DNA from: a virus
Virus record (IMG/VR): IMGVR_UViG_3300032296_001877
Coordinates: 1 to 30,089 of that record
DNA length: 30,089 bases
Reading direction: 5' to 3' (one strand)
The notes beneath the pieces are model-generated. The model searched no databases. It saw nothing but the letters and a program-made list of their open reading frames with translations, and was not told the DNA's origin. Numbering within the stretch: position 1 is the stretch's first letter; every line of letters begins with the position of its first letter. Shown piece after piece: positions 4,553 to 30,089 of the stretch. The translations under genes were made by a program, and so were the position numbers.

Positions 4553-6183
4553 TGGCTACGTGGCGCGGCATCAGACCGTGGGAATCCCAGACGTTTTTGG
4601 ACGACCAAGGCATCGAAGACCTGTGGGGGTACATCGGGGGGATGGGTCCGCAGCAGCCCGCCGTGCCTGTGGCGCCTGTGGCGCCTGCCGCACCCGCTGC
4701 GCAGCCGGCTGGGCCTTCGCCCGCAGCGGCGGACCCTTACGCGGCGATTCGGAACCTGCAGTTCACGTCGCAGCCGACCTACCGCCCCATCTCAGAAGAC
4801 GAGTGGGGCTACGAAAACACGTGGGAGGGTAGCCAGCGCGTGGCGCCCGCAGGGGCCGTCCAGATCATGGGCGACGACGGCAACATGGGCTGGGCTATGC
4901 CGTCTGGTCAAAGCTACGACTTCGACTGGGACACGGCCCGCATGCTGGAAAACACCCCGTTCCGCAGCAAGTACAGCAATGTGACGACGGGGCCGAACGG
5001 CACGATGCGGGTGACGCTGCAGCAGCCCGACGCCCACAAGTACGACACGATGGAGGCGATCTACGCCCAAGACCCGACCACGGGTCAGTGGACGCTGCAA
5101 AACGATCCGCGCACGGCGCCCACGCGGCAGGTAAGCACGGGCGAGTCGTTTTTCCGCGATCCGCTGGAGCAGTTTGGCAAAGATTTCGTGCTGCCCGCGG
5201 TGGCGATGTACACCGGGGCGCAGTTTCTGGCCCCGTATGCGGCACAGGCGACGGCGGCGCTTGAGGGAGCGTCTGCAATCGGTGCAGGATCGGCGGGCGG
5301 CGTCACGGCGGCCGAACAGGTGGCGATGATGGCTGCCAACGGCATGACGGATGTGGAGATTGCCGCGACGCTGGCATCTCAGGGCAACGCGGCAGCCGCG
5401 GCAACGCTCACGGGCCAGGGCTTCGGCGCAAGCGGGGCCATCAACACACTCCCCGACGCTCTCAGCGGCATGGACTTGGCGGCCGACGGCGGTGGAAACG
5501 CGCTGTGGGAAACGGGTTCGGAGGTCGCCACCAAAACGCTCCCCAACACCCTGCCCGAAGTCATGGCGGCGGAGCCCGGCATCCCGGCCTCAAGCATCGC
5601 GCCTGTGACGCCACCGGCGCCCCTGCCGGCGCTGCCCAGCCTGAACGCTGCGGGCAGCGGGGCGTCCGGACTCTTGGACTGGGTTAAAGCTAACCCGAAA
5701 CTTTCCAGAGGGATTGGCGGCGGTGTGGCCGCACTGCTCTCTGCGCTTGCATCCAAGAACGACAGGCCGCAGGATTCTGCCGGAGGTGTAGGCGCGGCGT
5801 ACGCAGGCCCGCGGCAGATGACACGCACAATGGAGCAGGGCAAGTACGGCCCGATAGCCCGTTACGCTGCTCAAGGCGGTGTGATGCAGGCATACGCACA
5901 GGGCGGCTCCGTGCGGCCCTTCCCGATGCAGGACGGCGGCTTCGTCATGACCAAGCGCGCAGTGGATGGCGCTGGCGGCATGGAGAACATGAAGCGCATC
6001 TTGCCGGAGACCGTGCCGATTCGTGGTCCGGGACACGGCACAAGTGATAGCATCCCGGCCTACATTCAGGGGAAGAACAGCCGCAGCCCGGCGGCAGTCT
6101 CAAACGGCGAGGCATACGTGCCCCCAGGCCGCAATGCCAAGGGGCTTTACTCGCTGATGAAGACGCTGGAAAGGAAGGCTTGA
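4552..6183 (+). CDS. Ala/Pro-rich virion structural protein with C-terminal GPGxGTSDSIPA motif
   Basis: 543 residues, starting one base into the previous stop (TAATG) with GAGGGGG as ribosome binding site. The N-terminal 50 residues are followed by a low-complexity Pro/Ala/Val linker (PVAPVAPAAPAAQPAG). A hydrophobic Ala-rich segment lies at about 225-290 (LPAVAMYTGAQFLAPYAAQATAAL). The C-terminus (about 430-540) has Gly-rich repeats (AAQGGVMQAYAQGGSV) and GPGHGTSDSIPAYIQGK near 492-508, followed by SNGEAYVPP. This SDSIPA...GE.YV motif recurs at the C-terminus of phage tail and internal virion proteins, but its function is unknown to me. Hydrophobic segments would fit a protein that interacts with membrane during DNA ejection; that part is inference. 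Confidence 0.65.
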   Translation: MATWRGIRPWESQTFLDDQGIEDLWGYIGGMGPQQPAVPVAPVAPAAPAAQPAGPSPAAADPYAAIRNLQFTSQPTYRPISEDEWGYENTWEGSQRVAPAGAVQIMGDDGNMGWAMPSGQSYDFDWDTARMLENTPFRSKYSNVTTGPNGTMRVTLQQPDAHKYDTMEAIYAQDPTTGQWTLQNDPRTAPTRQVSTGESFFRDPLEQFGKDFVLPAVAMYTGAQFLAPYAAQATAALEGASAIGAGSAGGVTAAEQVAMMAANGMTDVEIAATLASQGNAAAAATLTGQGFGASGAINTLPDALSGMDLAADGGGNALWETGSEVATKTLPNTLPEVMAAEPGIPASSIAPVTPPAPLPALPSLNAAGSGASGLLDWVKANPKLSRGIGGGVAALLSALASKNDRPQDSAGGVGAAYAGPRQMTRTMEQGKYGPIARYAAQGGVMQAYAQGGSVRPFPMQDGGFVMTKRAVDGAGGMENMKRILPETVPIRGPGHGTSDSIPAYIQGKNSRSPAAVSNGEAYVPPGRNAKGLYSLMKTLERKA

Positions 6184-7198: not shown

Positions 7199-8787
7199 TG
7201 ATGCAGCCGCAACCCCCAGCACAAGCACCGGGGCAGGCGCCCGCTGCGGCGCTTCCGAGCATGCTCGCTCAACAGAAGGGGTCGACGCCACCCCCGCAGA
7301 TCGGGCAGCTTGCGCAGATGCCTGTCGACCAGCTCAAGCACCTGTTCGCTCAGACGATGCAGTCGGACACCGGCATGCAGCCGTTGACGATCCTGGCAGC
7401 CATCAAGCAGGCGTCGGAGCGCCAGCGCATGCAGCAGGCGATGGCAGGGCAAGCGGCGCAACAGCAAGCTGCTCAACAGCCCGGCACGGTGCGGGACGAG
7501 GTGCTGGCGCAAGCGTACGCGGGCGGCGGCACCGTTGCGCTCAACAGCGGTGGTTCGACCAAGAACCAGATGGATGCGGCGCTGGAGGACTGGCTGAACG
7601 GGCTTGTGTACGACGCTTCGTTGCACCCGGGCTCGCCGGCAAAGCGGCAGCCGAAGCCTGAACCCGAACGTCCTGTGTTCACCGACACGGACCTTATCCT
7701 CAGCCCGGAGGAGGGGGCCGCACGCGACGTGGCGCAGGCACGCAGCGAACAGGCGCTCAGCACGGTCACACCTCCTACGCGGGATTACCCCGAGCCGGGG
7801 CCTGTGCGGCGTGCGGCGCAAGCACCACCAGCTGCTACTCCGACGCCGCGTCCCCAGGCTGCGCCTGCAAGTGCAACTACGGCCCCTCGTGCAGGGGGTG
7901 CACGCACCCAAGGCGGGCTCGACGCGCTGATCGAGCGATACGCACGGCAGGCTGCGGGCGACACGGACCCACGGCTGGAAGCGCTCGGCAAGACGATGGA
8001 GGCGAACGCACTCGCGCGGGGCGAAGCTCTGCGGTCGATGCAAGGGCTGTCCCCGGAAGAAGCTGCTGCCCGCGCCCGGTACTACGACACGGTGCGCGGT
8101 GCCTACGACCCGCAGCGCAAGGCGATGGAGGAGGCGCGTGCGTCTACGCGGCAGGGGTTGCTGAGCAACCCGGAAGCACTCGCGCGCATGGCGGCGGCCG
8201 TCAGCGGCAAGAAGCGGTTCGGGGAAGCGCTGGGCGCAGCGGCCGGCAGTGCCGGGGAGTTCATGGGCGAGCGCCGTCGTCGCGCTGAGCAGCTTGAGGC
8301 TCAGTACCAGACGCTGCAGTCGCAGCTCACCATCACCCTGGCCCAAGCCCAGCGAGCCGACGCTGAAGGCGACGAGAAGCGCAAGCGTGAGTTGCTCTTG
8401 CAAGCCCAGGCCATCAAGGATAGCCTCGCACAGGCGCAGCTTGAGCTTGTCAAGACCGGCTCGGAGATCCAGGGGCGCAACGTCGCGGGGCTGGCGGCGT
8501 TGACAAACGCACGGGCGAGCGAGCGGCAGGCTGCGGCGGCGCAGGCACGCGCGGCGCAAGAAGACACACAGCAGCGACAGGTGCAGCGCTATGCGCAGCT
8601 TCAGCAAGCTATCAACACGAGCCCGAAACTGCGCGCACTTGCAGAGCGCATGAAGATGATGCCGTCGCCGGAGCTGTCCGCGGAGTACGCGGCTGAAGAG
8701 CAAAGAATCATTCGGCAGTGGCTGCCGGAGATGCTGAACAACGCGGAGGTGATTCCTCCGGGTGCGGTACGTATCAAGGGGCAATAA
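7198..8787 (+). CDS. Gln/Ala-rich virion protein with C-terminal coiled coil
   Basis: 529 residues, starting at ATG 7198, which overlaps the previous stop. The first 110 residues are Pro/Gln/Ala-rich (linker-like, with AQMPVDQLKHLFAQ as one ordered helix). Next comes a Gly-rich AYAGGGTVALNSGGS segment similar in style to the end of the gene at 4552. After a second Pro/Ala linker at about 195-240, the C-terminal 280 residues are a long charged helix region, probably coiled coil (about 350-500, with many Ala/Gln/Glu/Arg heptads). No enzyme motif is visible. Its place between two virion genes, with a one-base overlap to the giant protein gene, suggests a partner of the giant protein in the virion or in DNA ejection. 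Function is unknown. Confidence 0.6.
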   Translation: MMQPQPPAQAPGQAPAAALPSMLAQQKGSTPPPQIGQLAQMPVDQLKHLFAQTMQSDTGMQPLTILAAIKQASERQRMQQAMAGQAAQQQAAQQPGTVRDEVLAQAYAGGGTVALNSGGSTKNQMDAALEDWLNGLVYDASLHPGSPAKRQPKPEPERPVFTDTDLILSPEEGAARDVAQARSEQALSTVTPPTRDYPEPGPVRRAAQAPPAATPTPRPQAAPASATTAPRAGGARTQGGLDALIERYARQAAGDTDPRLEALGKTMEANALARGEALRSMQGLSPEEAAARARYYDTVRGAYDPQRKAMEEARASTRQGLLSNPEALARMAAAVSGKKRFGEALGAAAGSAGEFMGERRRRAEQLEAQYQTLQSQLTITLAQAQRADAEGDEKRKRELLLQAQAIKDSLAQAQLELVKTGSEIQGRNVAGLAALTNARASERQAAAAQARAAQEDTQQRQVQRYAQLQQAINTSPKLRALAERMKMMPSPELSAEYAAEEQRIIRQWLPEMLNNAEVIPPGAVRIKGQ

Positions 8788-11700
8788 TGCCGTTGTTTGA
8801 TGTCGATGTCGAAGGCGTAACCTACGAGGTTAACGCACCCGATTCCGCCACCGCTTGGCGCTGGGCCAACCAGACACATCAGCAGCAAAGAGCGCTGGCG
8901 CCTGCCCCGGCGACTAAGCCGCAACCTCAGTCGGGCTTTCGCGCAGCACTAGGTGCGGGTATCCAAGGGCTTTTTGGTGCCGGCGCTGCGCTTGCGGGCC
9001 GCACAGGGTTCATGGACATGGAAGAGGCGCAGCGTGCGGTCGACGCGCGGCGTCAACGCCAGCAGGAGATCTTCAAGCCGACCGAGGAGTGGGGGCTCAC
9101 CAAGCTGAGCGAGCTGCTCGGCGGGTCTATCCCGTACATGGCGGCTCCGGTGGCCGCTGCAGGCGCCGTTGCGGCGCTTCCTGTCACGGGTACGGCTGCG
9201 GTTGCTACGGGTCTTGGCGCGGCGGGGCTGGCGTCTGCGACGCAGTTCACGGGCACGAACCTGTCCCGTCAGATCGAAGAAGGCAAGAAGCTCGCGGAGA
9301 CGGACTTGGGCAGCGCAGCCCTGGCGGCCGTGCCAATGGCGCTGCTCGACACGCTGTCTCTGCGCATGCTGCCTGGAGTGGGCAAGCTGTTGGGCGGCGC
9401 AGGCATCAAGGTCACCAAAGAGACCGCCAAGGAAGTCAGTGAGCAGATCCTGAAGAAGGCGGCCATCGACTACACAGCGGCCACGGGCCGGGCGATGACC
9501 GTGGAGGGGCTTACCGAGGCTGCACAGCAGGGCTTCGAGCGGCTGCAGGCAGGGCTGAACATCGCGGACGCTGATGCACGCAAGGAATACTTCGACGCCC
9601 TGGTGGGCGGCGCGTTGCTGGGTGGTGCCATCGCCCCTGTGGGGCGCTCCATGGAGCGTGGCAAGGCCAAGCGCGAGATCGCCGCCATCGAGCAGGAAGA
9701 AGCCGACCAGCAAGCCGCCGCTGCGCGCGAGGCAGACGCGAAGCGGAAGCAAGACCCGGCGTACCTGGAGGGCCTGAGCAAGACCTACCAGGAGCTTCTC
9801 GCGCAGAAGACCGCGCTCACCCAGCAGCTCAAGAAGGGCACCAAGGAAGCGCCGCTGTCGCAGGAAGACCGCGACGCCAACGCCGTGATCAACGAGCAGA
9901 TCAGTGCGCTGAAGCAACCGTTTGAGCGTGCCCGTAAGGAGTTCATCAGTGCCGGCGGCCCGCAGGCGCTTGCCAAGCTGCGCGAGGGGCAGTTTGCGCT
10001 GACGCCCCCGCCCGCAGAGACGCCGACAGCGCCTGAAAAACCTGAAGCGCCCGAGGCGCAGCGTGCGCGGTTGGCGCAGGATGTCGCCAAGCTGACAGAG
10101 TTGTTGGAGCAGCAACGCGAAGCGATCCTCAAAGCGGCTACGCCGGAGGAAGCGCTGCAGATCGCGCAGCAGGCTCAGCAGACGTACGAGGCGCTGACTG
10201 CAGCCAACACGGAGCTTGGCAAGCTGCCGTCGGTCCCGACGCGGAAGAGTCTTGAGCGCAAGGAGAAAGACCTCCTGAAGAAGTTCGAGGCGGCACGCGA
10301 GAGCGGCGACCAGCAGGCCGTGCTTGACATCGTGCCGAAGCTGCAAGAAGTGCGTAAGCAGCTTGCGGAAGCTGCGCCCTTTGACCTTGCGTCGCCAGAG
10401 TACGCGGCGGAAGAACAGAAGAAGCTCGACGCGCTAGGGCAGGCAATGGGCGAGGGGCGTGAGACGGCGCGCGAAAACACGCGGCAGACGGAGCTTGAGC
10501 AGCAAGCTGCTCGGGAGGAAGACGCTCGGCTGGCGGCGCAGCAACAGCAGCTTGACCTGGAGAACTGGGCCGAAGGCGAAGTTGCGCGAGAGCAGGCCGA
10601 GAACGCAGATTACCAAGCCAGCATCAAGGCGTCTGAGCCGTTGCGCACGGCGCCGCAGTTGGCGCTGTTCCCTGAAGCACAAGGCCGCGTGGCGCGGGCA
10701 GAGACGCCGCTGAAGCCCAGTGAGCGCCCCCCGGAGGTGCTGCCGTTGCGTGCAGAGCTGGCGAGGCTGCTGGCCGAGAAACGCAAGCTGAAACAGCCCC
10801 GCGTGGAGGTCGACGACGGTCGAGTTGCCGAGATCGATGCGCGTGTCGCGGAGATTGACGCACGCATCGCTGAGCTAGAGGCGGTGTCGCGGACTGCGCC
10901 AGGGAGCCTGTCTGAGTTGGTTCCACTACGTCCCGAGATGTCAAGGCTGCTGGCTGAAAAGCGGGCTTTGGAACAGGAACGCGCGACACCACGCGGTGAA
11001 CCCGTCAACGACCGCATCCGCGAGATCGACACGCGCGTCGCGGAGATCGAAGAACAACTCACTGGGCTGACCCAGCGTGCGGTCGAGACGCGGTCCGTGA
11101 TGGCGCCGCCGGATACGCCGCAAGCTGACACACGCCCCCAAGGGCCGCTGCCGGAGCGCCTCAACGCGCTTGCCGAGCGGATACTGGCGTCTCCCCGGGT
11201 CGACGAGGAGACCAAGGAGCTGGTCCGTCAGGTACAGGACAACCTGCCGGCGCTTATGCAGCGCGATGCAGGGAGTGTTGGTGGCTGGCTCTACCGCACG
11301 CTGCAGGGTACGGCGCCGCCGGACCTGACGCAGGACATCCGCAACCGGCTGGCGGAGCTGGAGGCAGGGCGCCGCTCGGAGACTGAGCAAGAGACGCAGC
11401 GCGTTCGCCGGCCGCTGACGGCCGATGAGCGGAAAGCCGTTGCAGGCACGTCGCTGCAGGGGCAGCGCACCGTTGGGCAGCCGCAGCCCACAGGCGAGAC
11501 CCACCGCGCTGTGCAAACCGAACTGGACATGCCTGAGCCCAGCGCCACGGCGTTCGAGACACTGAAGGAGTTCCAGGATTACCTTGCGAGCGACATGCTT
11601 GCCGCGGTGCGCGGCAGTGTCGGGCCTGTGCGCCCTACCGCTGAGCGCTTGGAGCGTCAACTGGACGAGCTGCGACAGCAAGCCGCGCGCTACCGCGAAG

Positions 11701-14700
11701 ATCAACGCCTGCTGGATCTGGCCGCTGCCGCGCTGCGGCAGTACGTGCCTGAGGTTGTGCCTCCCGGTGCCCCGGTAAACGCTAATCCGCAAGCGCTCGC
11801 GGTCGCGATGGAGCGACTGTCTGAGGCAAACACTGAAGCGATTCGCGCAGCGCAAGCGCTGTTGGACAACCAGCAAGCATTTGAAGCGCAGGTTGAGACA
11901 GCATCCGACGCAGACTTCAAGCAGTTTTTGGTTGAGGACACCAAGCGCTACTTTGACCTTCAGCAGCAACTTCGACGTGTTGCGGGCTTCAAGTCTCAGG
12001 TCAGTAAGCAACGCAACCTGATTGCGGCGGCTGAAAGACGCGCCAACCTCGTGGAACTCGAAGCGTCTGCTGCGGCTACCGCGGCGCCCGCTGAGCGCCG
12101 CGCGGACTTTAGCGACGCGCTGGCGAAGGCCAAAGCGAAAGAAGCAGGCGCACTGGAGAAACAAGTCCGCGAGCAAGAGGCGACGGCAAAGAAGCGTGCT
12201 GCGGAAGGCGCTGCGCGGCGGCAGCCGGCGACGTTTACGCCAGAGGTCGAAACCCAGGGGCAGCGCGAGGCACGGTCGGCCAAGACGCGTGCCGCTGAGC
12301 AAGCGAGCCTTGAACGGCTCGAGGCGCTTCCTGGTATGCGCATCACGTACGACCGCGAAGAAAAGCAGGACTTCAAGCGGGCACTGAAGGCGTTGGAGGA
12401 GCGGTTCCTGCTCGCTACGACTAAGGACGAGATCGACGCTGTCAAGGCGGACATCGACACATATCTCGCATCCTATGCGGCCGACCAAGACGCCAAGATC
12501 GATGAAGCGAAGCGCAAGGCGTCCAAGAACCTGCAAGACCTGAGCGCCCGGCGTAAGGAAGTCGCGGAACTCACTGAGCGGCTAAAGGGCAAACTCACGC
12601 CGAAGCGACGCGCGTCTGCGGAAAAGCAGCTCAAGGAAGCGCAAGAAAGAGTGCAGGAACACCAGCGTCGCTACGCGATTAACGCGAGCGAGATCAAGCT
12701 CGTGCGCACGGACATCCAGGCTGCTCGCAAAGCGCGGAACGACGCGCTGGCGGAAGCGAACCGGAAAGTCGTTGCTGGAAAACGTCTCGGTGTTGCCGAG
12801 GATACGCGCAAGCGCGCCATCGGCCCTGTCACGCGGCCGGAGGTCTACCCGCCGAAGACAATGTATACCGGCTCGGAAGAGAGCCGTGCAGGCGAGACAA
12901 CGGCCAACAAGCGCAACGCGCTACAAGAAGCCCGCGGTGTGCAGCAGCGCGACGTGCCGATGAAGGCGTCTGAGCAAGCGGAAGCGAACAAGATCGCGGA
13001 AGCTCTGCGCAAGAAGACGCCGGAGCAGCAGGCCAAGGAGCAGAAGGAAGAGGCGGCTGTTCAGAAAGAACAGGCTGCGCTGCAGGCGCAACCGACGAAG
13101 GTCAAGCCGCTTAAAGAAGCGGCTAAAAAGAGCAAGACTAAACCGACACGGTCAGAAGTCGTCGAGGGGATCGACGAAGACCTGTACGAAGAGCCGGACA
13201 TTGAGCTCCTCGGCGGGCCTGAAGAGGACGTGTACCTGCGCGAAGCGGGGCAAAAGTACGAAACCCGTGACCTCACTGACCTGAGCCCTGCCGCGACAGA
13301 TGCGCTTGAGGACGGAGACATCCGTACGGCGCTGGCCGATCTGGAGAAGAACGGCTCCACGCCGTTTGTGCGTGCGCTGGCAAAGCGGCTTGGCGACATG
13401 ACGATGCGTACCACGCTGGATGTGCGAGACAGCGTTGTCCATGATGGCGAAGTGGTTGAGGGCGTGTACTCCCCGACGCAAAACAGCGTGCTGCTGCACC
13501 GCGCGGCGCTTTCGGAAGAGACGCTTACACACGAGCTTGCGCACGCCGCCACCGTGCGTGCGCTGGAGGCCGACCCGAAGACGCTCACTCCTGCGCAACA
13601 AGCGGCACGCAAAGAGATCGAAGCGCTGCATGCGGCAATCCAAAAGCAGCCCGACTTTGCACGCGAGTACGGCCGCAAGAACGTCAAGGAGTTCGTGTCC
13701 GAGCTACTGTCTAACATCGACTTCCGCAACAAGCTGGACAAGCAGAAGCCGAGTTTCATCCGCCGTGTGTACGACGCACTCCTGCGCTTGCTAGGAGTCC
13801 CGCAGGCCACGCGGTCTGAGCAGGCGGTCAAGGCCGCATACGCGCTGTTCATGCCCGCGCAAAAACTCAAGGCAGCGGCGGCTCCGTCCGCGCAGCGCGG
13901 CGGCGCAGGGCTGGCGACAGCATCCCGCGTGGCCGACTCACTCATCGCCAAGGAGAAGGGCTGGCTGGACAAGATCAAAGCCAACCTGCGGGCAGGGCGC
14001 GCACAACACATCGACAAGCTGGCGCCCGTCGAGGAGGCGCTGAAGGGCGGCAAGGTCGACGATCTGAAAGCAACACAGGCGCGGTACAACCTGCGGATGT
14101 ATGACCAGCGGATGCACTTCACGGCCCAGGCGATCTATGACGGAGCGCCAGGACTCATCGAGAAGACGCGGAAGGACGGGCGCACGGAGCGCTTGGTCGA
14201 GTCCGTCCCCGGCGCCAACATCAAGCAGATCGTCGACATCCTCAAGGCCAAGGACGTAGTCAAGGAAGCCGGCAGCCCCGATGCGGCCAACAAGCTGTTC
14301 ACGCTCTATCTGGCGGCCATCCGCGGCGAGCGTGTGGGGTACGACGCGCTGAACTTCAAAGTCAATGCCGACGACATCAACGCCGCACGCGCCGAGATCG
14401 AAGCGAACCCCACGCTCAAGACGGCGTTCGACAAGGCGCGAGAGGTCTACAACAACTACAACCGGAACCTGATCCAGTTTGCCATCGACACCGGGGCCAT
14501 TGGCAAAGAGAAGGGCCGTGCGCTGCTGCAGTCTAACGACTACATCCCGTACTATCGCGTGCGCGACGGCGTGGCGGAGCTGATGATCGGCAAAGAAACG
14601 CCTGTCCGAATCGGCAACCTGAAAGACAGCCCGCACCTCAAGGAGCTTGTCGGCGGTGACGAGGCGATCTTCGACTTCCTGACGAGCAGCGTGCAGAACA

Positions 14701-16445
14701 CGTCGATGCTGATGGACATGTCCATGCGTAACCTCGCGGTGAAGAACCTGATGTTCGAGTTCCGCGACGTCGGGCTGGCGAAGATCGGCAAGGTCAAGGG
14801 CGGCAAGGCGCCGACGGGCAGCGTGACGTTCACGAAGGACGGCGAGGACTACTTCGCCGTGGTCGACACGGACGCCATCGGGGTTGATAGCGAGCTGCTG
14901 GTCAAGGGCTTGGCAGGCATCCCGACGATGTTCCCCACGCTCATCCAGGTCTTTGGCGTGCCTGCGCGGTTGCTGCGGCGGCTGGTGGTGGCGTCTCCGG
15001 TCTACATGGCGAAGGCGCTGGTGCGTGACTCTTCCAACGCGGCCATCGCCAGCGGCGCGGACATCGCCCCGGTGCTGAGTTCCGTGAAGCAGATCGGCAA
15101 GCCCAGCGTGCTGGCGCGCCGGGGCATCACGGGCGGCATGGTGTTCACCGGGATGCCGGAGGACCAGACGCGGCTGCTCAAGGAGATGCAGGCCGGCAAG
15201 ATCAGCCTGTCCAGCGGGCTGGCCCGCCTGGAGGCGCTGTCTGCCAAGGTCGACGCGCTCACGCGCGAGGCACAGTACGAAAGCTACCGCGAGCAGGGGC
15301 TGTCGGAGATGGAGGCCACGCTCATGGCGCTGGAGTCGATGAACTTCAGCCGCCGCGGCTTGTCGCCCACCATGCACATGCTCAGCACGCTGCTGCCGTT
15401 CTTCAACGCTCAGATCCAGGGCCTGGACGTGCTGTACAGATCTTTCCGCGGCGACATGCCGTTCAACGAGCGGCTGCAGGTCCGTGAGAAGCTCTTCAAG
15501 CGCGGCATGATGCTGTTCGGCATGAGCATGATGTACGCCACGCTGATGCAGGACGACGAGGCGTACCAGAACGCCAAGGTGGAGGAGAAGTACAGCAACT
15601 TCTTCGTGCCGGTCCCCGGCACTGACCAACTGATGCGCGTGCCGATCCCGTTCGAGCTGGGGTACATCTTCAAGGCGCTGCCCGAAGCGTTGGTGAACAT
15701 GATAGCGAACGAGGGCGGGGGTGAGGAAGCGCTCAAGGCGCTGCAGCACATTGCCAAGCAGACGGTGCCCGGGCTGTCGTCGTGGTTCATCCCGCAGGCG
15801 CTCAAGCCCGCGCTGGAAGTGGCAACGGACTACTCGATCTTCACCGGCCGCGGGTTGGAGTCGTCGCGCGAGACACTGGTCGAGCCCGGCTTTCGCTACC
15901 GCGACAACACCACCGAGCTTGCCAAGATGGTGGGCGAAGCCACAGGCTTCTCTCCGATCAAGATGGAGTACCTGATCCGCGGCTACACCGGGAGCCTGGG
16001 CATGGCGGCCATGGCGGCGCTGAGCGCGCCCTTCGGCAGCAGTGGGCCTGAGTCGGCCGCCAAGCGCCCGTCCGACTTGCCGGTGGTGGGTACGCTCTTC
16101 CAGCCGACCGACGCCAGCGGCATCATCGACCTCGTCTACGAGAAGCTGGGCAAAGCGCGAGAGGTCCAGCAGACCTACAAGAGCCTGATCGAGAAGGGAC
16201 GGCCGGAGGACGCGCAGAAGTACCTGGACGAGAACATCGAGAGCTTGATGCTCACGACGATGGCCGGGCAGTTCACGAAGCACATGGGCGAGATCACGGA
16301 GTACGAGCGCAGCATCCGCAGCTCAAACATGACGCCGGAAGAGAAGCGCGCGGCGCTCGACGAAGCGCGGCAGGCCAAGATCGAGCTGGCTAAGGCCGTT
16401 CGTGACCAGCTCGGTAAAACCACACGCCAAGCAGTCCCAGCCTGA
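8787..16445 (+). CDS. Giant polyvalent-type virion protein with embedded HExxH metallopeptidase
   Basis: 2552 residues, one quarter of the window. The start is ATG 8787, overlapping the upstream TAA and preceded by AAGGGG. Order: a small N-terminal beta-type domain (MPLFDVDVEGVTYEVNAPD); hydrophobic Gly/Ala segments at about 55-75, 112-156 and 170-205, as in proteins ejected into the host envelope; very long charged coiled coils from about 295 to 1450, with one duplicated unit (652-699 and 712-761); a zincin domain with His1582, Glu1583, His1586 (HELAH) and a likely third ligand Glu1635 or Glu1639 in NVKEFVSEL; then an ordered C-terminal region of about 800 residues. Part of the C-terminus (about 2130-2330, with NFSRRGLSPTMHMLSTLLPF and RVPIPFELGYIFKALPEAL) resembles large polyvalent protein-associated domains (LPD38-like, from memory). 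It probably enters the cell with the DNA; the peptidase could process virion or host proteins. Confidence 0.8.
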   Translation: MPLFDVDVEGVTYEVNAPDSATAWRWANQTHQQQRALAPAPATKPQPQSGFRAALGAGIQGLFGAGAALAGRTGFMDMEEAQRAVDARRQRQQEIFKPTEEWGLTKLSELLGGSIPYMAAPVAAAGAVAALPVTGTAAVATGLGAAGLASATQFTGTNLSRQIEEGKKLAETDLGSAALAAVPMALLDTLSLRMLPGVGKLLGGAGIKVTKETAKEVSEQILKKAAIDYTAATGRAMTVEGLTEAAQQGFERLQAGLNIADADARKEYFDALVGGALLGGAIAPVGRSMERGKAKREIAAIEQEEADQQAAAAREADAKRKQDPAYLEGLSKTYQELLAQKTALTQQLKKGTKEAPLSQEDRDANAVINEQISALKQPFERARKEFISAGGPQALAKLREGQFALTPPPAETPTAPEKPEAPEAQRARLAQDVAKLTELLEQQREAILKAATPEEALQIAQQAQQTYEALTAANTELGKLPSVPTRKSLERKEKDLLKKFEAARESGDQQAVLDIVPKLQEVRKQLAEAAPFDLASPEYAAEEQKKLDALGQAMGEGRETARENTRQTELEQQAAREEDARLAAQQQQLDLENWAEGEVAREQAENADYQASIKASEPLRTAPQLALFPEAQGRVARAETPLKPSERPPEVLPLRAELARLLAEKRKLKQPRVEVDDGRVAEIDARVAEIDARIAELEAVSRTAPGSLSELVPLRPEMSRLLAEKRALEQERATPRGEPVNDRIREIDTRVAEIEEQLTGLTQRAVETRSVMAPPDTPQADTRPQGPLPERLNALAERILASPRVDEETKELVRQVQDNLPALMQRDAGSVGGWLYRTLQGTAPPDLTQDIRNRLAELEAGRRSETEQETQRVRRPLTADERKAVAGTSLQGQRTVGQPQPTGETHRAVQTELDMPEPSATAFETLKEFQDYLASDMLAAVRGSVGPVRPTAERLERQLDELRQQAARYREDQRLLDLAAAALRQYVPEVVPPGAPVNANPQALAVAMERLSEANTEAIRAAQALLDNQQAFEAQVETASDADFKQFLVEDTKRYFDLQQQLRRVAGFKSQVSKQRNLIAAAERRANLVELEASAAATAAPAERRADFSDALAKAKAKEAGALEKQVREQEATAKKRAAEGAARRQPATFTPEVETQGQREARSAKTRAAEQASLERLEALPGMRITYDREEKQDFKRALKALEERFLLATTKDEIDAVKADIDTYLASYAADQDAKIDEAKRKASKNLQDLSARRKEVAELTERLKGKLTPKRRASAEKQLKEAQERVQEHQRRYAINASEIKLVRTDIQAARKARNDALAEANRKVVAGKRLGVAEDTRKRAIGPVTRPEVYPPKTMYTGSEESRAGETTANKRNALQEARGVQQRDVPMKASEQAEANKIAEALRKKTPEQQAKEQKEEAAVQKEQAALQAQPTKVKPLKEAAKKSKTKPTRSEVVEGIDEDLYEEPDIELLGGPEEDVYLREAGQKYETRDLTDLSPAATDALEDGDIRTALADLEKNGSTPFVRALAKRLGDMTMRTTLDVRDSVVHDGEVVEGVYSPTQNSVLLHRAALSEETLTHELAHAATVRALEADPKTLTPAQQAARKEIEALHAAIQKQPDFAREYGRKNVKEFVSELLSNIDFRNKLDKQKPSFIRRVYDALLRLLGVPQATRSEQAVKAAYALFMPAQKLKAAAAPSAQRGGAGLATASRVADSLIAKEKGWLDKIKANLRAGRAQHIDKLAPVEEALKGGKVDDLKATQARYNLRMYDQRMHFTAQAIYDGAPGLIEKTRKDGRTERLVESVPGANIKQIVDILKAKDVVKEAGSPDAANKLFTLYLAAIRGERVGYDALNFKVNADDINAARAEIEANPTLKTAFDKAREVYNNYNRNLIQFAIDTGAIGKEKGRALLQSNDYIPYYRVRDGVAELMIGKETPVRIGNLKDSPHLKELVGGDEAIFDFLTSSVQNTSMLMDMSMRNLAVKNLMFEFRDVGLAKIGKVKGGKAPTGSVTFTKDGEDYFAVVDTDAIGVDSELLVKGLAGIPTMFPTLIQVFGVPARLLRRLVVASPVYMAKALVRDSSNAAIASGADIAPVLSSVKQIGKPSVLARRGITGGMVFTGMPEDQTRLLKEMQAGKISLSSGLARLEALSAKVDALTREAQYESYREQGLSEMEATLMALESMNFSRRGLSPTMHMLSTLLPFFNAQIQGLDVLYRSFRGDMPFNERLQVREKLFKRGMMLFGMSMMYATLMQDDEAYQNAKVEEKYSNFFVPVPGTDQLMRVPIPFELGYIFKALPEALVNMIANEGGGEEALKALQHIAKQTVPGLSSWFIPQALKPALEVATDYSIFTGRGLESSRETLVEPGFRYRDNTTELAKMVGEATGFSPIKMEYLIRGYTGSLGMAAMAALSAPFGSSGPESAAKRPSDLPVVGTLFQPTDASGIIDLVYEKLGKAREVQQTYKSLIEKGRPEDAQKYLDENIESLMLTTMAGQFTKHMGEITEYERSIRSSNMTPEEKRAALDEARQAKIELAKAVRDQLGKTTRQAVPA
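10740..11069 (+). repeat. Internal duplication in the giant protein coiled coil
   Basis: Residues 652-699 (LPLRAELARLLAEKRKL ... RVAEIDARIAELEA) and 712-761 (VPLRPEMSRLLAEKRAL ... RVAEIEEQLTGL) are clearly homologous. They start 180 bases apart (10740 and 10920). Within the first unit the heptad-like VAEIDAR is itself doubled. The protein repeat is stronger than the DNA identity, so the duplication is not very recent. Confidence 0.85.
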
Positions 16446-23841: not shown

Positions 23842-24078
23842 TCAGTGCCCGTTGTCCGCTTGGTTGGCTTTGCGCGACCGAAGCCGCGTATTGCCCTTGG
23901 TGCTCTTGCCGCCGTTGCGCAGCGGCTTGACGTGGTGAATGTCCTTGCCGGAGCGGTCGATGCCATCCTTGTCGTATGCGCGGCGTGCGCGCTGGCGCTC
24001 AATCTGGTCTTTTGTTTCGCCCGAGGCTTTCTGCAGCTTGTATGCGTGCTTCCAGTCCCTCTTTCCATTTGTTTGCAT
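23842..24078 (-). CDS. Small HNH nuclease-like protein
   Basis: 78 residues, GAGGGAC upstream of ATG 24078, one base after the exonuclease stop. Basic N-terminal helix (KRDWKHAYKLQKASGETKD, then RQRARRAYDKDG), then KDIHHVKPLRNGGKSTKGNTRLRSRKANQ. The HH...N...N spacing fits the beta-beta-alpha metal nuclease (HNH) core found in many small phage proteins with this layout. It is a different lineage from the two intein-nested nucleases. It may be a free-standing HNH endonuclease or a DNA-processing factor. It lies between the exonuclease and helicase genes. Confidence 0.7.
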   Translation of the reverse strand: MQTNGKRDWKHAYKLQKASGETKDQIERQRARRAYDKDGIDRSGKDIHHVKPLRNGGKSTKGNTRLRSRKANQADNGH

Positions 24079-24079
24079 G

Positions 24080-24745
24080 TCAGTCCCTCTTGGTGTTAAA
24101 CGCGCACGTCTTCACAGGACACCAGCCGCAGAGTGGCGACTGCTTGGGGTTCCACACACCATGCGCGTGTGCGGCTTCGATCTTTGCAACGCGCTCCCTG
24201 TACCTCTGCCACGCCTCGTCCGCGTCTTCGCGGTCGATACTGTGCTTCGCCATGCTCCCCTTGACGATGAACATGAGCGCTGAGCGAACGCGCCGAATGT
24301 GGGGGAAGTGGATGAACACCATCAAACCCATCAGCAATAGCTGGTCTGTGTCTGGGTACTTATTGTTGCCCGTTTTCCAGTCTACCACCCGTGCGGTCAG
24401 ATTCTCGTCGTCAATGACGAGTAGGTCAGCGATACCACGCACCCACACTTGCTCGTCCTTAAACCCACACGGCTTGAGGTCCGTGGTCACACCCATCTCG
24501 TGCTCGAATAGCTTGCGCCCGGGCTTAGCCAGCACCGCGTCCACCACCGGTTTGTACTGCGCGAAGGCTGCGGGTAGTGCCGCCGCCGTCTTGCCGTAGT
24601 CCTCGATAGCTTTGTGTACGTCCTTGCCGTAGAGCGTCTGCGCCGTGTCCTTGAACGGATAGCGCTTGAGCACCTTGACTTCGTGATACCGCCGTGGGCA
24701 GCCCTCGAAATCCTTGAGTGCTGAATGCGACCACTTGACCGTCAT
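24080..24745 (-). CDS. Cas4/RecB-like PD-(D/E)XK exonuclease with probable Fe-S cluster
   Basis: 221 residues. Nuclease core: His44 in GKDVHKAIE, Asp107 in GIADLLV, Asp122 and Lys124 in VVDWKTG, Gln135 in DTDQLLL, matching the RecB-family active site. Four cysteines placed as in Cas4/AddB-type iron-sulfur nucleases: Cys16 (EGCPRRY) near the N-terminus, and Cys206, Cys209, Cys214 at the C-terminus (LCGWCPVKTC). Probable role is end resection for recombination or replication. No cas1 or CRISPR repeat is nearby, so it is a phage replication nuclease, not a CRISPR adaptation gene. Its ATG overlaps the stop of the zincin gene by 4 bases. Confidence 0.85.
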   Translation of the reverse strand: MTVKWSHSALKDFEGCPRRYHEVKVLKRYPFKDTAQTLYGKDVHKAIEDYGKTAAALPAAFAQYKPVVDAVLAKPGRKLFEHEMGVTTDLKPCGFKDEQVWVRGIADLLVIDDENLTARVVDWKTGNNKYPDTDQLLLMGLMVFIHFPHIRRVRSALMFIVKGSMAKHSIDREDADEAWQRYRERVAKIEAAHAHGVWNPKQSPLCGWCPVKTCAFNTKRD

Positions 24746-25041
24746 AGTTTAGCCGTTGTGATTACCTGCGTGAGTCGGTTGGCAAACGCGGTCACGAATT
24801 TCTCGTCGTTCCATTGCCGGTGCCCCATGTCGCGGAGAATGGCGTGTGTGACTTCGTGCCAGAACGTGTCGGCAACCTCTTCTGTCTTGAAGCTGCGGTC
24901 GCTTATGCTGCTGTTGGTTGCGACATGTACGATTCCGGCCTCGTAGTGGACCTTGCCCATAGTGCCGCGAGGGGCCGTGTGGCGCACAAGAGACACGGTG
25001 TAAGTCTTCTTACCCAGCTTGAACTCTTTGGGGATCTGCAC
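24742..25041 (-). CDS. Small zinc metallopeptidase-like protein (HExxH)
   Basis: 99 residues; GTG start at 25041 with AAGGAG 7 bases upstream. The core is ADTFWHEVTHAILRDMG: His62, Glu63 and His66 form the zincin motif, with Glu80 in NDEKFVTAFA a likely third ligand. The layout resembles short phage and prophage zincins related to SprT/ImmA-type proteins, but no partner repressor is obvious. It may cleave a host or phage regulatory protein or simply bind zinc. It overlaps the upstream 77-aa ORF by 32 bases and the exonuclease gene by 4, so it is part of the operon. Confidence 0.8.
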   Translation of the reverse strand: MQIPKEFKLGKKTYTVSLVRHTAPRGTMGKVHYEAGIVHVATNSSISDRSFKTEEVADTFWHEVTHAILRDMGHRQWNDEKFVTAFANRLTQVITTAKL

Positions 25042-28091: not shown

Positions 28092-28324
28092 TGCACTTCT
28101 CCTGGGTTATGCGTCAGCGTCTCGGGCTCCAACGCGGAGCATGCGGTCGCAAGCAGTGCGTAGGCTTCCTCTTGTGTCAACCGGAATGGCGTGACAACAA
28201 GGCTGCGTCCGTCCGTGACGAGCATCACGGCTCCGAGCTTGCTGCCTTCCTGCGTGACGCGCTGTGCGAGCTCAAGCATTTCAGCGCGAGCCAGCACCGT
28301 CTTCTGCGTGTCGTCAAGCAGCAT
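28088..28324 (-). CDS. Small phage protein, unknown function
   Basis: 78 residues from ATG 28324, preceded by AGGAG 6 bases upstream within the VRR-NUC 3' end (overlap 11 bases). The open frame runs further up, but that part is Arg/Ser-rich shadow of the VRR-NUC gene. The protein starts MLLDDTQKTVLARAEMLELAQRV, has a strand GAVMLVTDGRSLVVTPFRL and a helix TQEEAYALLATACSALE. It overlaps the DNA polymerase TTG start by 4 bases. No domain is recognised. Confidence 0.7.
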   Translation of the reverse strand: MLLDDTQKTVLARAEMLELAQRVTQEGSKLGAVMLVTDGRSLVVTPFRLTQEEAYALLATACSALEPETLTHNPGEVH

Positions 28325-28616
28325 GTCCACTCCTGCGTAGCCAAGTTGCAAGCATCTCGATTGTGTCTTCTCGAATGACGAGCGTTTCTCCGCCAGCCTT
28401 CCGTATCTTTGCCATCTCTGCTTCTTGCAGCGCCGTGGGTTTGTTGTATCCCGCCTTGCACTCAATGGCAAGGAAGCGGCCCTTGTGGCAGACGACGATG
28501 TCCGGAACGCCAGAGCGCCCATACCCCCCGGTGACCGGGAAGAAGTAATACGCGCCGTGTTCATTGAGCATCGTGGTGCACGCCTGCTTGACTCTTTTCT
28601 CAGGTGTTGCTGCCAT
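28314..28616 (-). CDS. VRR-NUC domain nuclease
   Basis: 100 residues. VRR-NUC (PD-(D/E)XK-like) pattern: GVPDIVVC with Asp39, then KGRFLAIECKAG with Glu52 and Lys54, then KPTALQEAE with Gln64 and a final helix AGGETLVI. The stand-alone short form is common in phages, where it may act as a structure-specific or Holliday-junction-type nuclease. It lies directly upstream of the polymerase pair and starts 17 bases inside the NrdR-like ORF. No strong Shine-Dalgarno precedes ATG 28616. Confidence 0.88.
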   Translation of the reverse strand: MAATPEKRVKQACTTMLNEHGAYYFFPVTGGYGRSGVPDIVVCHKGRFLAIECKAGYNKPTALQEAEMAKIRKAGGETLVIREDTIEMLATWLRRSGHAA

Positions 28617-28944: not shown

Positions 28945-29316
28945 TCAGCCCTGATTGCTGTGTTTGATGCGCGTCTCAGCGCGTTCTCGATAACTCGGCC
29001 GTTTCGGGATGTTAGCCCGAACCCACTCGGACATCTCCGTGGCGGTGACGAGTCGCCCGTCGGCATTGCAGTGCTGGTCGCATCGACGGCCCCGCGCAGG
29101 CACGTACAGTGTGCGCGAGTGCAGCACCCCGGCCTTGCCGATGATGGCGAGCGTCACCCACGCGTCGCCGGGCTCTGGATCGGGCGGGATCGGCGGCAGT
29201 GTGGCGCACATCCCCTCGCGCTTCGCGTCTGCGATGGCGCGTCGGTTGCGCAGACCAGTCGGGCTGTTATTCCACGCCCAGCGGCTTGCGCTACGGTTGG
29301 TTGCTTGACTTTGCAT
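28945..29316 (-). CDS. Hypothetical protein beside the cassette junction
   Basis: 123 residues if started at ATG 29316; no Shine-Dalgarno is visible there, and a start at ATG 29211 (88 residues) has GAGGGG but too close. The clearest protein-like part is GDAWVTLAIIGKAGVLHSRTLYVPARGRRCDQHC, then TEMSEWVRANIP. A Cys-x-x-x-Cys pair (RCDQHC) could bind metal. No family is recognised. The gene start lies 18 bases from the left edge of the first cassette, so its 5' region and promoter could have been changed by the insertion. Confidence 0.6.
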   Translation of the reverse strand: MQSQATNRSASRWAWNNSPTGLRNRRAIADAKREGMCATLPPIPPDPEPGDAWVTLAIIGKAGVLHSRTLYVPARGRRCDQHCNADGRLVTATEMSEWVRANIPKRPSYRERAETRIKHSNQG

Positions 29317-29330
29317 AGTTGCGGTAACGA

Positions 29331-29594
29331 CTAGTTAGGCGTCAGTCCTTCCACGGCCAGCGCGTACATCCGCTTCGCCAGCCCAATCGCGTAGGCTTCC
29401 TGCGCATGCACCGGCTCGCCGCACTCTGCCCCAGCCCATTCTTCTGCAATCTCGTGCAGGGCGCGGCGCATCCGTTCGCGCTCCAGCCACGCATAGATAA
29501 GCTGCTGCGTCTCCCACGCGGTAAGCGGCGGGTGCTGTCCGCGTTCGCATCGGGCCAGCGCATCGCGCGCAAGGTCTTCGGTAATCTGTGCCAT
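29331..29594 (-). CDS. Cassette 1 ORF, unknown function
   Basis: 87 residues from ATG 29594, with GGAG 9 bases upstream; a GTG at 29609 in the same frame would add 5. A helical protein: MAQITEDLARDALARC, TAWETQQLIYAWLERERMRRALHEIAEEW, AYAIGLAKRMYALA. Reads away from attC 1 and crosses the left cassette edge: its last codon (AAC) is part of the R' box, and the TAG stop is in the flanking phage-side DNA. Most integron cassette genes run towards their attC; this one is antisense to it and in line with the phage early operon. Function is unknown. Confidence 0.65.
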   Translation of the reverse strand: MAQITEDLARDALARCERGQHPPLTAWETQQLIYAWLERERMRRALHEIAEEWAGAECGEPVHAQEAYAIGLAKRMYALAVEGLTPN

Positions 29595-29675
29595 GTCCTG
29601 TTTCTCCACCGCTGACGCCTAACCACCGCTCAACCGGAGGTCAGCGGCAAGCCGCTGCCCCCGGTTAGCTTTTCG
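29335..29675. mobile_element. Integron gene cassette 1 (341 bp)
   Basis: Bounded by two GTTAGGC boxes (29334-29340 and 29675-29681), with an attC at its right end. Its left edge GTTAGGCGTCAG (29334-29345) is the exact complement of CTGACGCCTAAC (29612-29623) at the start of its own attC, 12 bp. That pairing is expected because, in the free circle, the cassette's 5' end supplies the R' box of its own attC. No attC or recognisable attI lies left of 29334, so this is the array's left boundary. Confidence 0.88.
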
Positions 29676-29681
29676 TTAGGC
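29617..29681 (+). other. attC: attC site 1
   Basis: 65 bp. R'' GCCTAAC (29617-29623), L'' GCTCAACCGG (29628-29637), central stem CAGCGGC/GCCGCTG (29642-29657), L' CCGGTTAGC (29661-29669), spacer TTTTC, R' GTTAGGC (29675-29681). L'' pairs with L' except for an extra C at 29631, the extrahelical base typical of attC and on the expected arm for a + orientation. The exchange point would be between G29675 and T29676. The C-terminus of the cassette 2 ORF is encoded across this site on the - strand. Confidence 0.9.
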
Positions 29682-30031
29682 CGCTCGTGGCTGCTCGGCA
29701 GTCCCCAGTCCACCACCCGCGCCAGTTCTCGCCCATCAGCGTCGCGCTGCAGCGTCACGGTGGCTGACGTCCGTGGGATCGTCTGTCCCTGGTCGCAGGC
29801 CCACCCTGCGCCGCGAATGCGCAGTTCCAGCATGCCCGGCCGGTCATGCGGCACGTACACGCTATCGATGTACGCGCCCAGCGGAAGCTGCAGAAGCTCT
29901 TGCAGGGCCTCGGGTGTTGCAAGCAGTATTGCGGCCAGTCGCTGGGTGTCAGTACGCTCCGGCTGCAGCGGCCTAACCCCTCGCTCAAGCTGACCCGCTA
30001 CGGCAGCGTTGCCCTGCGGTTCTTCGGTCAT
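29630..30031 (-). CDS. Cassette 2 ORF, unknown function
   Basis: 133 residues from ATG 30031, with a perfect AAGGAG 7 bases upstream; both lie in the loop of attC 2. Mixed alpha/beta content: DTQRLAAILLATPEALQELL, then YIDSVYVPHDRPGMLELRIRG and SATVTLQRDADG. It reads antisense to the attC, crosses the cassette junction at 29675 and ends inside attC 1, so its last ~16 residues (after HERPN) come from the neighbouring cassette and would differ in another array position. No family is recognised. Confidence 0.65.
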   Translation of the reverse strand: MTEEPQGNAAVAGQLERGVRPLQPERTDTQRLAAILLATPEALQELLQLPLGAYIDSVYVPHDRPGMLELRIRGAGWACDQGQTIPRTSATVTLQRDADGRELARVVDWGLPSSHERPNEKLTGGSGLPLTSG

Positions 30032-30089
30032 GTCAATTCTCCTTCGCCCCGCAGGGCAACGCCGCCTCCGCGGGCAGCTTAGCTCGAAC
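29971..30089 (+). other. attC: attC site 2 (lacks its final R' box at the window end)
   Basis: R'' GCCTAAC (29971-29977), spacer CCCTC, L'' GCTCAAGCTG (29983-29992), long central palindrome GCGTTGCCCTGCGG (30006-30019) with CCGCAGGGCAACGC (30049-30062), L' CAGCTTAGC (30075-30083), spacer TCGAAC; the R' box would begin at base 30090. Outer arms pair as GCT-C-AAGCTG-A-CCCGC with GCGGGCAGCTTAGC, leaving C29986 and A29993 extrahelical, the attC signature. Larger than attC 1 (about 126 bp if completed). Confidence 0.88.
30039..30044 (-). promoter_or_regulatory. Ribosome binding site in the attC 2 loop
   Basis: AAGGAG on the - strand, 7 bases before ATG 30031. Both lie in the unpaired loop between the arms of the central palindrome, so folding of attC as RNA or single-stranded DNA would leave the initiation signal exposed. 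It supports the ORF at 29630-30031 as a translated gene. Confidence 0.7.

Follow-up and report, generated by a model that had tools for sequence, protein, structure and literature searches.

What are integron-type cassettes doing at the end of a phage genome, and do they belong there? The window, meaning the whole stretch of DNA that was analysed, is the complete IMG/VR record IMGVR_UViG_3300032296_001877 (30,089 bases), and the cassette finding spans its final 755 bases. It is a phage contig: the minus strand encodes a primase, an SNF2-type helicase, an exonuclease and a DNA polymerase, and the plus strand virion structural, tail and DNA ejection proteins. A 2575-aa ORF (8718-16445, plus) is possibly a large internal virion protein, and within the replication operon we observe a small HNH-like ORF recognized by eye (23842-24078, minus) and a weak SprT-like ORF whose E-value of 8e-4 falls below the Pfam cut-off (24742-25041, minus). 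A 100-aa ORF at 28314-28616 (minus) resembles a VRR-NUC nuclease by eye and has relatives in the DNA polymerase neighbourhoods of L015-L019 (G and L numbers are our own handles). Portal, terminase, major head, tape measure and tail genes occur on the array contigs G002, G003, G008, G009, G025 and G040, and few genes are common to different array contigs.

The original prediction placed two integron attC sites at the contig end and proposed a covariance-model search as a check. We ran this search with a model, R1, trained on 40 attC sites from bacterial chromosomal integrons only and containing no phage sequence, and both sites were matched, more strongly on the minus strand than on the plus.

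29617-29681, minus strand: attC1, 65 nt; R1 score 33.1 bits, E 2.8e-7; DNA fold z -4.2
29971-30089, minus strand: attC2, a long hairpin clipped by the contig end; R1 score 84.3 bits, E 1.7e-21; DNA fold z -6.0

Because the R1 scores of the plus strands are far lower (12.9 bits for attC2 and 16.5 bits for attC1) and single-stranded DNA folding agrees, the plus strands folding less well, we take the minus strand to be the recombinogenic bottom strand. By the R1 match and the DNA fold, the paired R''/R' boxes, the L''/L' stem and the extrahelical bases are all present. At 84.3 bits attC2 is a genuine site, but it is incomplete, as the contig end cuts through it, and the cassette array may extend beyond that end. 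The gap between the two sites is 290 bases, within the spacing of a CALIN (two or more attCs in about 4 kb of sequence, with no integrase). An Rfam scan of the window returned no attC match, which is uninformative since, to our knowledge, Rfam has no attC family; a distant DNA search of isolated phages with attC1 and attC2 gave chance matches only. The presence of integron cassettes at the end of this phage contig is confirmed.

The two cassettes and their genes are laid out as follows.

29335-29675: cassette A by the canonical integron rule, with core boxes GTTAGGC at 29334 and 29675 and its gene inverted inside
29331-29594, minus strand: cassette A gene, 87 aa, with its own Shine-Dalgarno sequence and a stop codon immediately behind the core box
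29630-30031, minus strand: cassette B gene, 133 aa, starting in the attC2 loop and ending inside attC1

The first cassette begins at 29335, as had been proposed, because the cut falls after the G of the plus-strand core box GTTAGGC at 29334-29340. The complementary cassette edges likewise hold, with GTTAGGCGTCAG at 29334 pairing with CTGACGCCTAAC preceding attC1. The reading of these segments as cassette units therefore stands, but it overlooked the direction of the genes: being on the minus strand, the ORFs run against the canonical sense of the attCs. Whereas a canonical gene cassette consists of a sense gene followed by its own attC, the genes in the window are on the opposite strand, and attC1 additionally codes for the final codons of the 133-aa ORF. 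The 87-aa protein has up to 90% amino acid identity in other phage contigs, and its gene differs from those of G001 and G002 by substitutions distributed over codon phases as 11:1:2 and 15:0:1; judged from these alignments, the protein is conserved, with constraint at the level of codons. Profile scans, with the 87-aa protein in its correct frame, gave no family match for either cassette protein, and tblastn of the 87-aa and 123-aa proteins (the latter described below) found no relatives among isolated phages.

Is the inversion peculiar to the window? Sampling by an exact 18-base attC start yielded 98 stretches from viruses and at least 120 from bacteria. With sites defined by R1, genes called by an ORF/GC3 heuristic and contigs chosen by this one exact 18-mer, the inverted sense is found in 100/113 distinct viral cassettes (34 contigs versus 1, with one tie; sign test 1e-9) and the canonical sense in 91/101 bacterial cassettes (25 loci versus 0, with two ties). 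Bacterial loci such as L143 carry their genes on the strand opposite to the one modelled by R1, and in L147 and L145 intI is on the side expected under the canonical layout. The window's cassette genes count as inverted because they lie on the R1-modelled strand, whereas bacterial genes lie on the other. A weak test based on the strand of substitutions points the same way, with 28 viral pairs favouring the inverted sense and 13 against it (the bacterial pairs numbering only 5).

These statistics bear on one alternative, that a phage acquired ordinary host cassettes in a single event at a secondary site hit by chance. Insertion by IntI at secondary sites is known, and the attC type is the same as in host chromosomal integrons. 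Such a capture is nonetheless improbable: the systematic inversion of the genes already argues against it, as do, described below, loop starts specific to phage attCs, a docking site common to unrelated phages and phage-type cargo.

The inner boundary of the array has an anatomy of its own.

29334-29340, minus strand: core (R) box at the docking-side end of the array, GCCTAAC on the minus strand and GTTAGGC on the plus
29317-29333, minus strand: conserved spacer TAGTCGTTACCGCAACT between the core box and the docking gene, an attI-like candidate
28945-29316, minus strand: docking (platform) gene, 123 aa, the fixed neighbour of the array

Along the minus strand, the GCCTAAC of the last cassette is thus followed by the spacer and the start of the 123-aa gene. 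We find this box ahead of the same spacer in L032, L105, L111, L181 and L289-L293; in L105, GCCTAACTAGACACTACCACGACC precedes a protein 68.8% identical to the window's docking protein. Homologs of the docking gene were located by tblastn and the docking DNA pattern in L181, G018, G040/G041 and others, while a peptide-pattern search for relatives of the 123-aa gene found none. The degenerate docking pattern AACTWGWMVHTACSNNRACYATGMAMASTC matched 8 viral contigs, and in all 8, as well as in the window and a contig of an Aquincola metagenome-assembled genome (MAG), a core-like box stands ahead of it and a member of the docking gene family behind. The last cassettes before this shared site are several different ones. 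Its likeness to known attI sites is loose only.

This recurrence decides whether the phage-cassette join at 29334 could be an assembly chimera, a phage contig misjoined to a chromosomal integron. The window is a single contig that terminates inside attC2, a typical repeat break, as a misassembly might. Against this, the same box, spacer and gene family appear with varied last cassettes in nine other records (eight IMG/VR contigs and the one Aquincola MAG), the separate records L105, L289 and L292 are near-identical downstream, and the arrays of G040 and G041 have 99.8% identical phage sequence on both flanks. We regard a chimera at 29334 as extremely improbable and treat it as excluded because L105, L292, L111, L032/G040, L293/G041, L291/G018 and L181 share the boundary and the downstream gene family; the join is genuine.

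Several further features of docking regions were observed. L105 and L292 at first appeared to differ by a cassette swap, which proved to be a deletion: the last cassette is missing 77 bases up to exactly the core box, the contigs being otherwise identical. The Aquincola contig (L181, 900-2998) combines inverted-type attCs with the window's type of docking gene and is perhaps a prophage or a host link. A second docking type is found at the array ends of G003 and G015, where the core box is followed by GTGTTTTAGGCARCGTNGCGCAACTTTGC, and more loosely in G007 and G001; a MRFRTRS-like gene start lies behind its core box, and it has some likeness to attI1 (CCTAAAACAnnGTTAGGC).

How such arrays change is best seen in G040 (47,353 bases, probably complete because it has a 114-base terminal repeat) and G041 (29,016 bases). 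Across 23.3 kb these contigs are 99.75 to 99.86% identical, yet the arrays that fill the interval from the docking box to the last gene in common, about 3.1 kb and 5.0 kb long, are wholly unlike. Both arrays contain inverted genes, including methyltransferase-like proteins. Their shared flanks lose identity within core boxes, the docking-side flank at CCTAAC and the opposite one at CGCCTAACG. Cassettes that behave as mobile units with core boxes as their limits, a further mark of a CALIN, are thus seen in these relatives and not in the window itself. Taken together, the comparisons establish, at the level of sequence, the anatomy, orientation and recurrence of a phage cassette locus, of which the window is an informative end piece. 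The original prediction did not recognize this recurrent and hypervariable locus with a docking site of its own, nor the start signals in the attC2 loop described below.

As the original prediction stated, the cassettes stand in a phage genome with no integrase in view: neither the window nor G040, G041 and G043 contains a Phage_integrase match, and the window has no IntI and so lacks the intI of a complete integron. Because G040 is probably complete and has no tyrosine recombinase, we infer that a host IntI acts in trans. An IntI above the cut-off was found in only 2/39 records tested, G025 and G027; in both, the attCs have the canonical polarity with respect to intI, toward which the cassettes read. 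In G025 there is, besides IntI, a second tyrosine recombinase as well as a major head gene. G027 has ParB and an H-NS-like gene, and a scan of seven of its proteins revealed no phage hallmark. As observations in their own right, G025 (L269, 16072-18658) is an apparent temperate phage with an intact-looking IntI (428 bits to TIGR02249), its IntI and second recombinase lying side by side, both on the strand of the inverted cassettes and downstream of them; G027 (L271) may be a phage-plasmid or a plasmid, and the IntI that it carries is 100% identical to that of L048.

The scarcity of IntI in most array phages favours the main rival, in which phage homologous recombination, and not an integron integrase, now moves the hairpins as attC-derived repeats. 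Consistent with it, attCs and gene bodies assort independently: near-identical attCs stand ahead of different gene bodies in 23/27 pairs, and near-identical bodies are flanked by different attCs on both sides in G002, G007 and G009. This assortment does not fit canonical single-box recombination, under which one attC should stay with the body. Two explanations are left: both boxes take part, or recombination runs through short homologies in the attC arms, which are conserved and could serve in this way. Homologous recombination would not readily explain, however, why the G040/G041 identity ends within the core box on both sides with few shared bases beyond, why core boxes and extrahelical bases are retained, or why some phages retain an intact-looking intI. 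On balance, we consider this rival unlikely and favour exchange by an integron integrase.

A Shine-Dalgarno sequence and start codon within the attC, with the frame open for at least 30 codons past the box, occur in 55/168 viral attCs versus 4/150 bacterial ones; on the opposite strand, the counts are 2/168 and 0/150. The window's attC2 belongs to this class, with AAGGAG and ATG in its apical loop, where both remain in the RNA fold, so that the N-terminus of the 133-aa ORF, MTEEPQGNAAVAGQLERGVR, is encoded by the attC. The same attC-encoded leader, beginning MTEEPQGN, stands ahead of different genes in six other contigs (L009-L014). In L010 (about 4980-5480; G005), two copies of GTGAGACTCAGCCGGG flank the right half of the MTEEPQGN attC and its gene; this phage has no other attCs. 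According to a review (PMC8876359), ordinary attC hairpins impede translation of the downstream cassette (Jacquier 2009); a start within the loop would be a plausible solution. The loop starts, and ORFs that end in the next attC, could also mean that the hairpins are now only elements of gene expression, as leaders or couplers, and have lost recombination. This we consider very unlikely, as arrays turn over at the boxes between near-identical phages and short attCs without starts are retained too.

What the arrays carry is only partly recognizable. Few of 62 phage cassette proteins have Pfam matches, and these are to N6/N4 and C5 methyltransferases, a YfbR-like nucleotidase, Band 7 and regulators, to which PHROGs adds an HNH endonuclease and a dNMP phosphatase; the methyltransferase-like protein of G040 matches phage DNA methyltransferases. 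Judged by these matches, the recognizable cargo is made up of phage-type accessory genes, oriented opposite to host cassettes. The suggestion that such phages are a notable route for the spread of bacterial cassettes is, with this cargo and orientation, weakly supported.

Our preferred reading, to which we assign a probability of roughly 70%, is that the window holds the docking-side end of an inverted phage cassette array with integrase-exchanged, loop-started and swappable cargo. The sequences themselves show small genes divided by attCs of the Burkholderiales chromosomal-integron type; being inverted relative to the attCs, these genes all point to the docking box and share their direction with the phage replication genes that follow, from whose operon transcription would be supplied. 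In many attCs, attC2 among them, the loop-start hairpin doubles as a 5' leader and N-terminal coding sequence for a gene that ends in or before the next attC, and it would allow ribosomes to load past a structure that normally hinders translation. The array occupies the conserved box-spacer-gene site in several unrelated phages and would be replaced by an integron integrase acting on folded single-stranded attC DNA, with IntI normally supplied by the host and only a few phage contigs having their own. The cargo would form a swappable accessory pool of DNA methyltransferases, nucleotide enzymes and others, probably directed against host defences. The stronger proposal is of an integron domesticated by phages into a distinct, inverted form. 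One hairpin would serve recombination, ribosome loading and the protein N-terminus, a cassette would bring its own start wherever it is inserted in a phage operon, and whole arrays would be exchanged at a dedicated docking site through the host integrase; this proposal seems to us evenly poised.

If this reading is true, phages that infect common Burkholderiales of freshwater and soil borrow the gene capture of their hosts to swap blocks of accessory genes. Such site-specific swaps would be more precise than the usual phage mosaicism and would account for hypervariable loci in near-identical phages; attC together with the docking gene would be a marker for the discovery of counter-defence genes, and these attCs would combine recombination and translation in the same bases.

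Qi et al. (2023, PMC9892861) have described CALINs from both virulent and temperate phages, where 5/6 phage attCs assayed recombined with attI1 via IntI1. Those clusters resemble ours in being integrase-free and in having methyltransferases among their cargo. In TJE1 and PH101, however, the cassettes all point in one direction in a structure typical of bacterial arrays, and unlike the present work, that report mentions neither attC-inverted genes nor loop start codons, nor a conserved docking site, nor phages that are nearly identical but differ in their arrays. The inverted genes, the starts embedded in attC, the conserved docking site and the natural turnover of arrays all appear to be new: in the literature searched, neither systematic inversion of phage cassettes nor attC-embedded starts nor a phage docking site came up as already described, but its coverage misses most subscription journals and preprints, and for that reason novelty is unproven. 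Phage-borne intI with cassettes, as in G025, is known from Vibrio p16, a P1 transconjugant and Shewanella M16-3 (PMC9892861), but in those cases parts of host or class 1 integrons were captured, whereas the genes of G025 and G027 read toward intI. The sedentary chromosomal integrons of Rubrivivax and other Burkholderiales share the attC family and its polarity relative to intI, and differ from the phage arrays in having canonical-sense genes and almost no loop starts. Finally, integron sites are likewise known to affect cassette translation through ORF-11 in attI1 and through attC (PMC8876359, PMC4670013); in the known case ORF-11 lies in attI and attC hairpins hinder translation, whereas here the start codon lies in the loop of the cassette's own attC.
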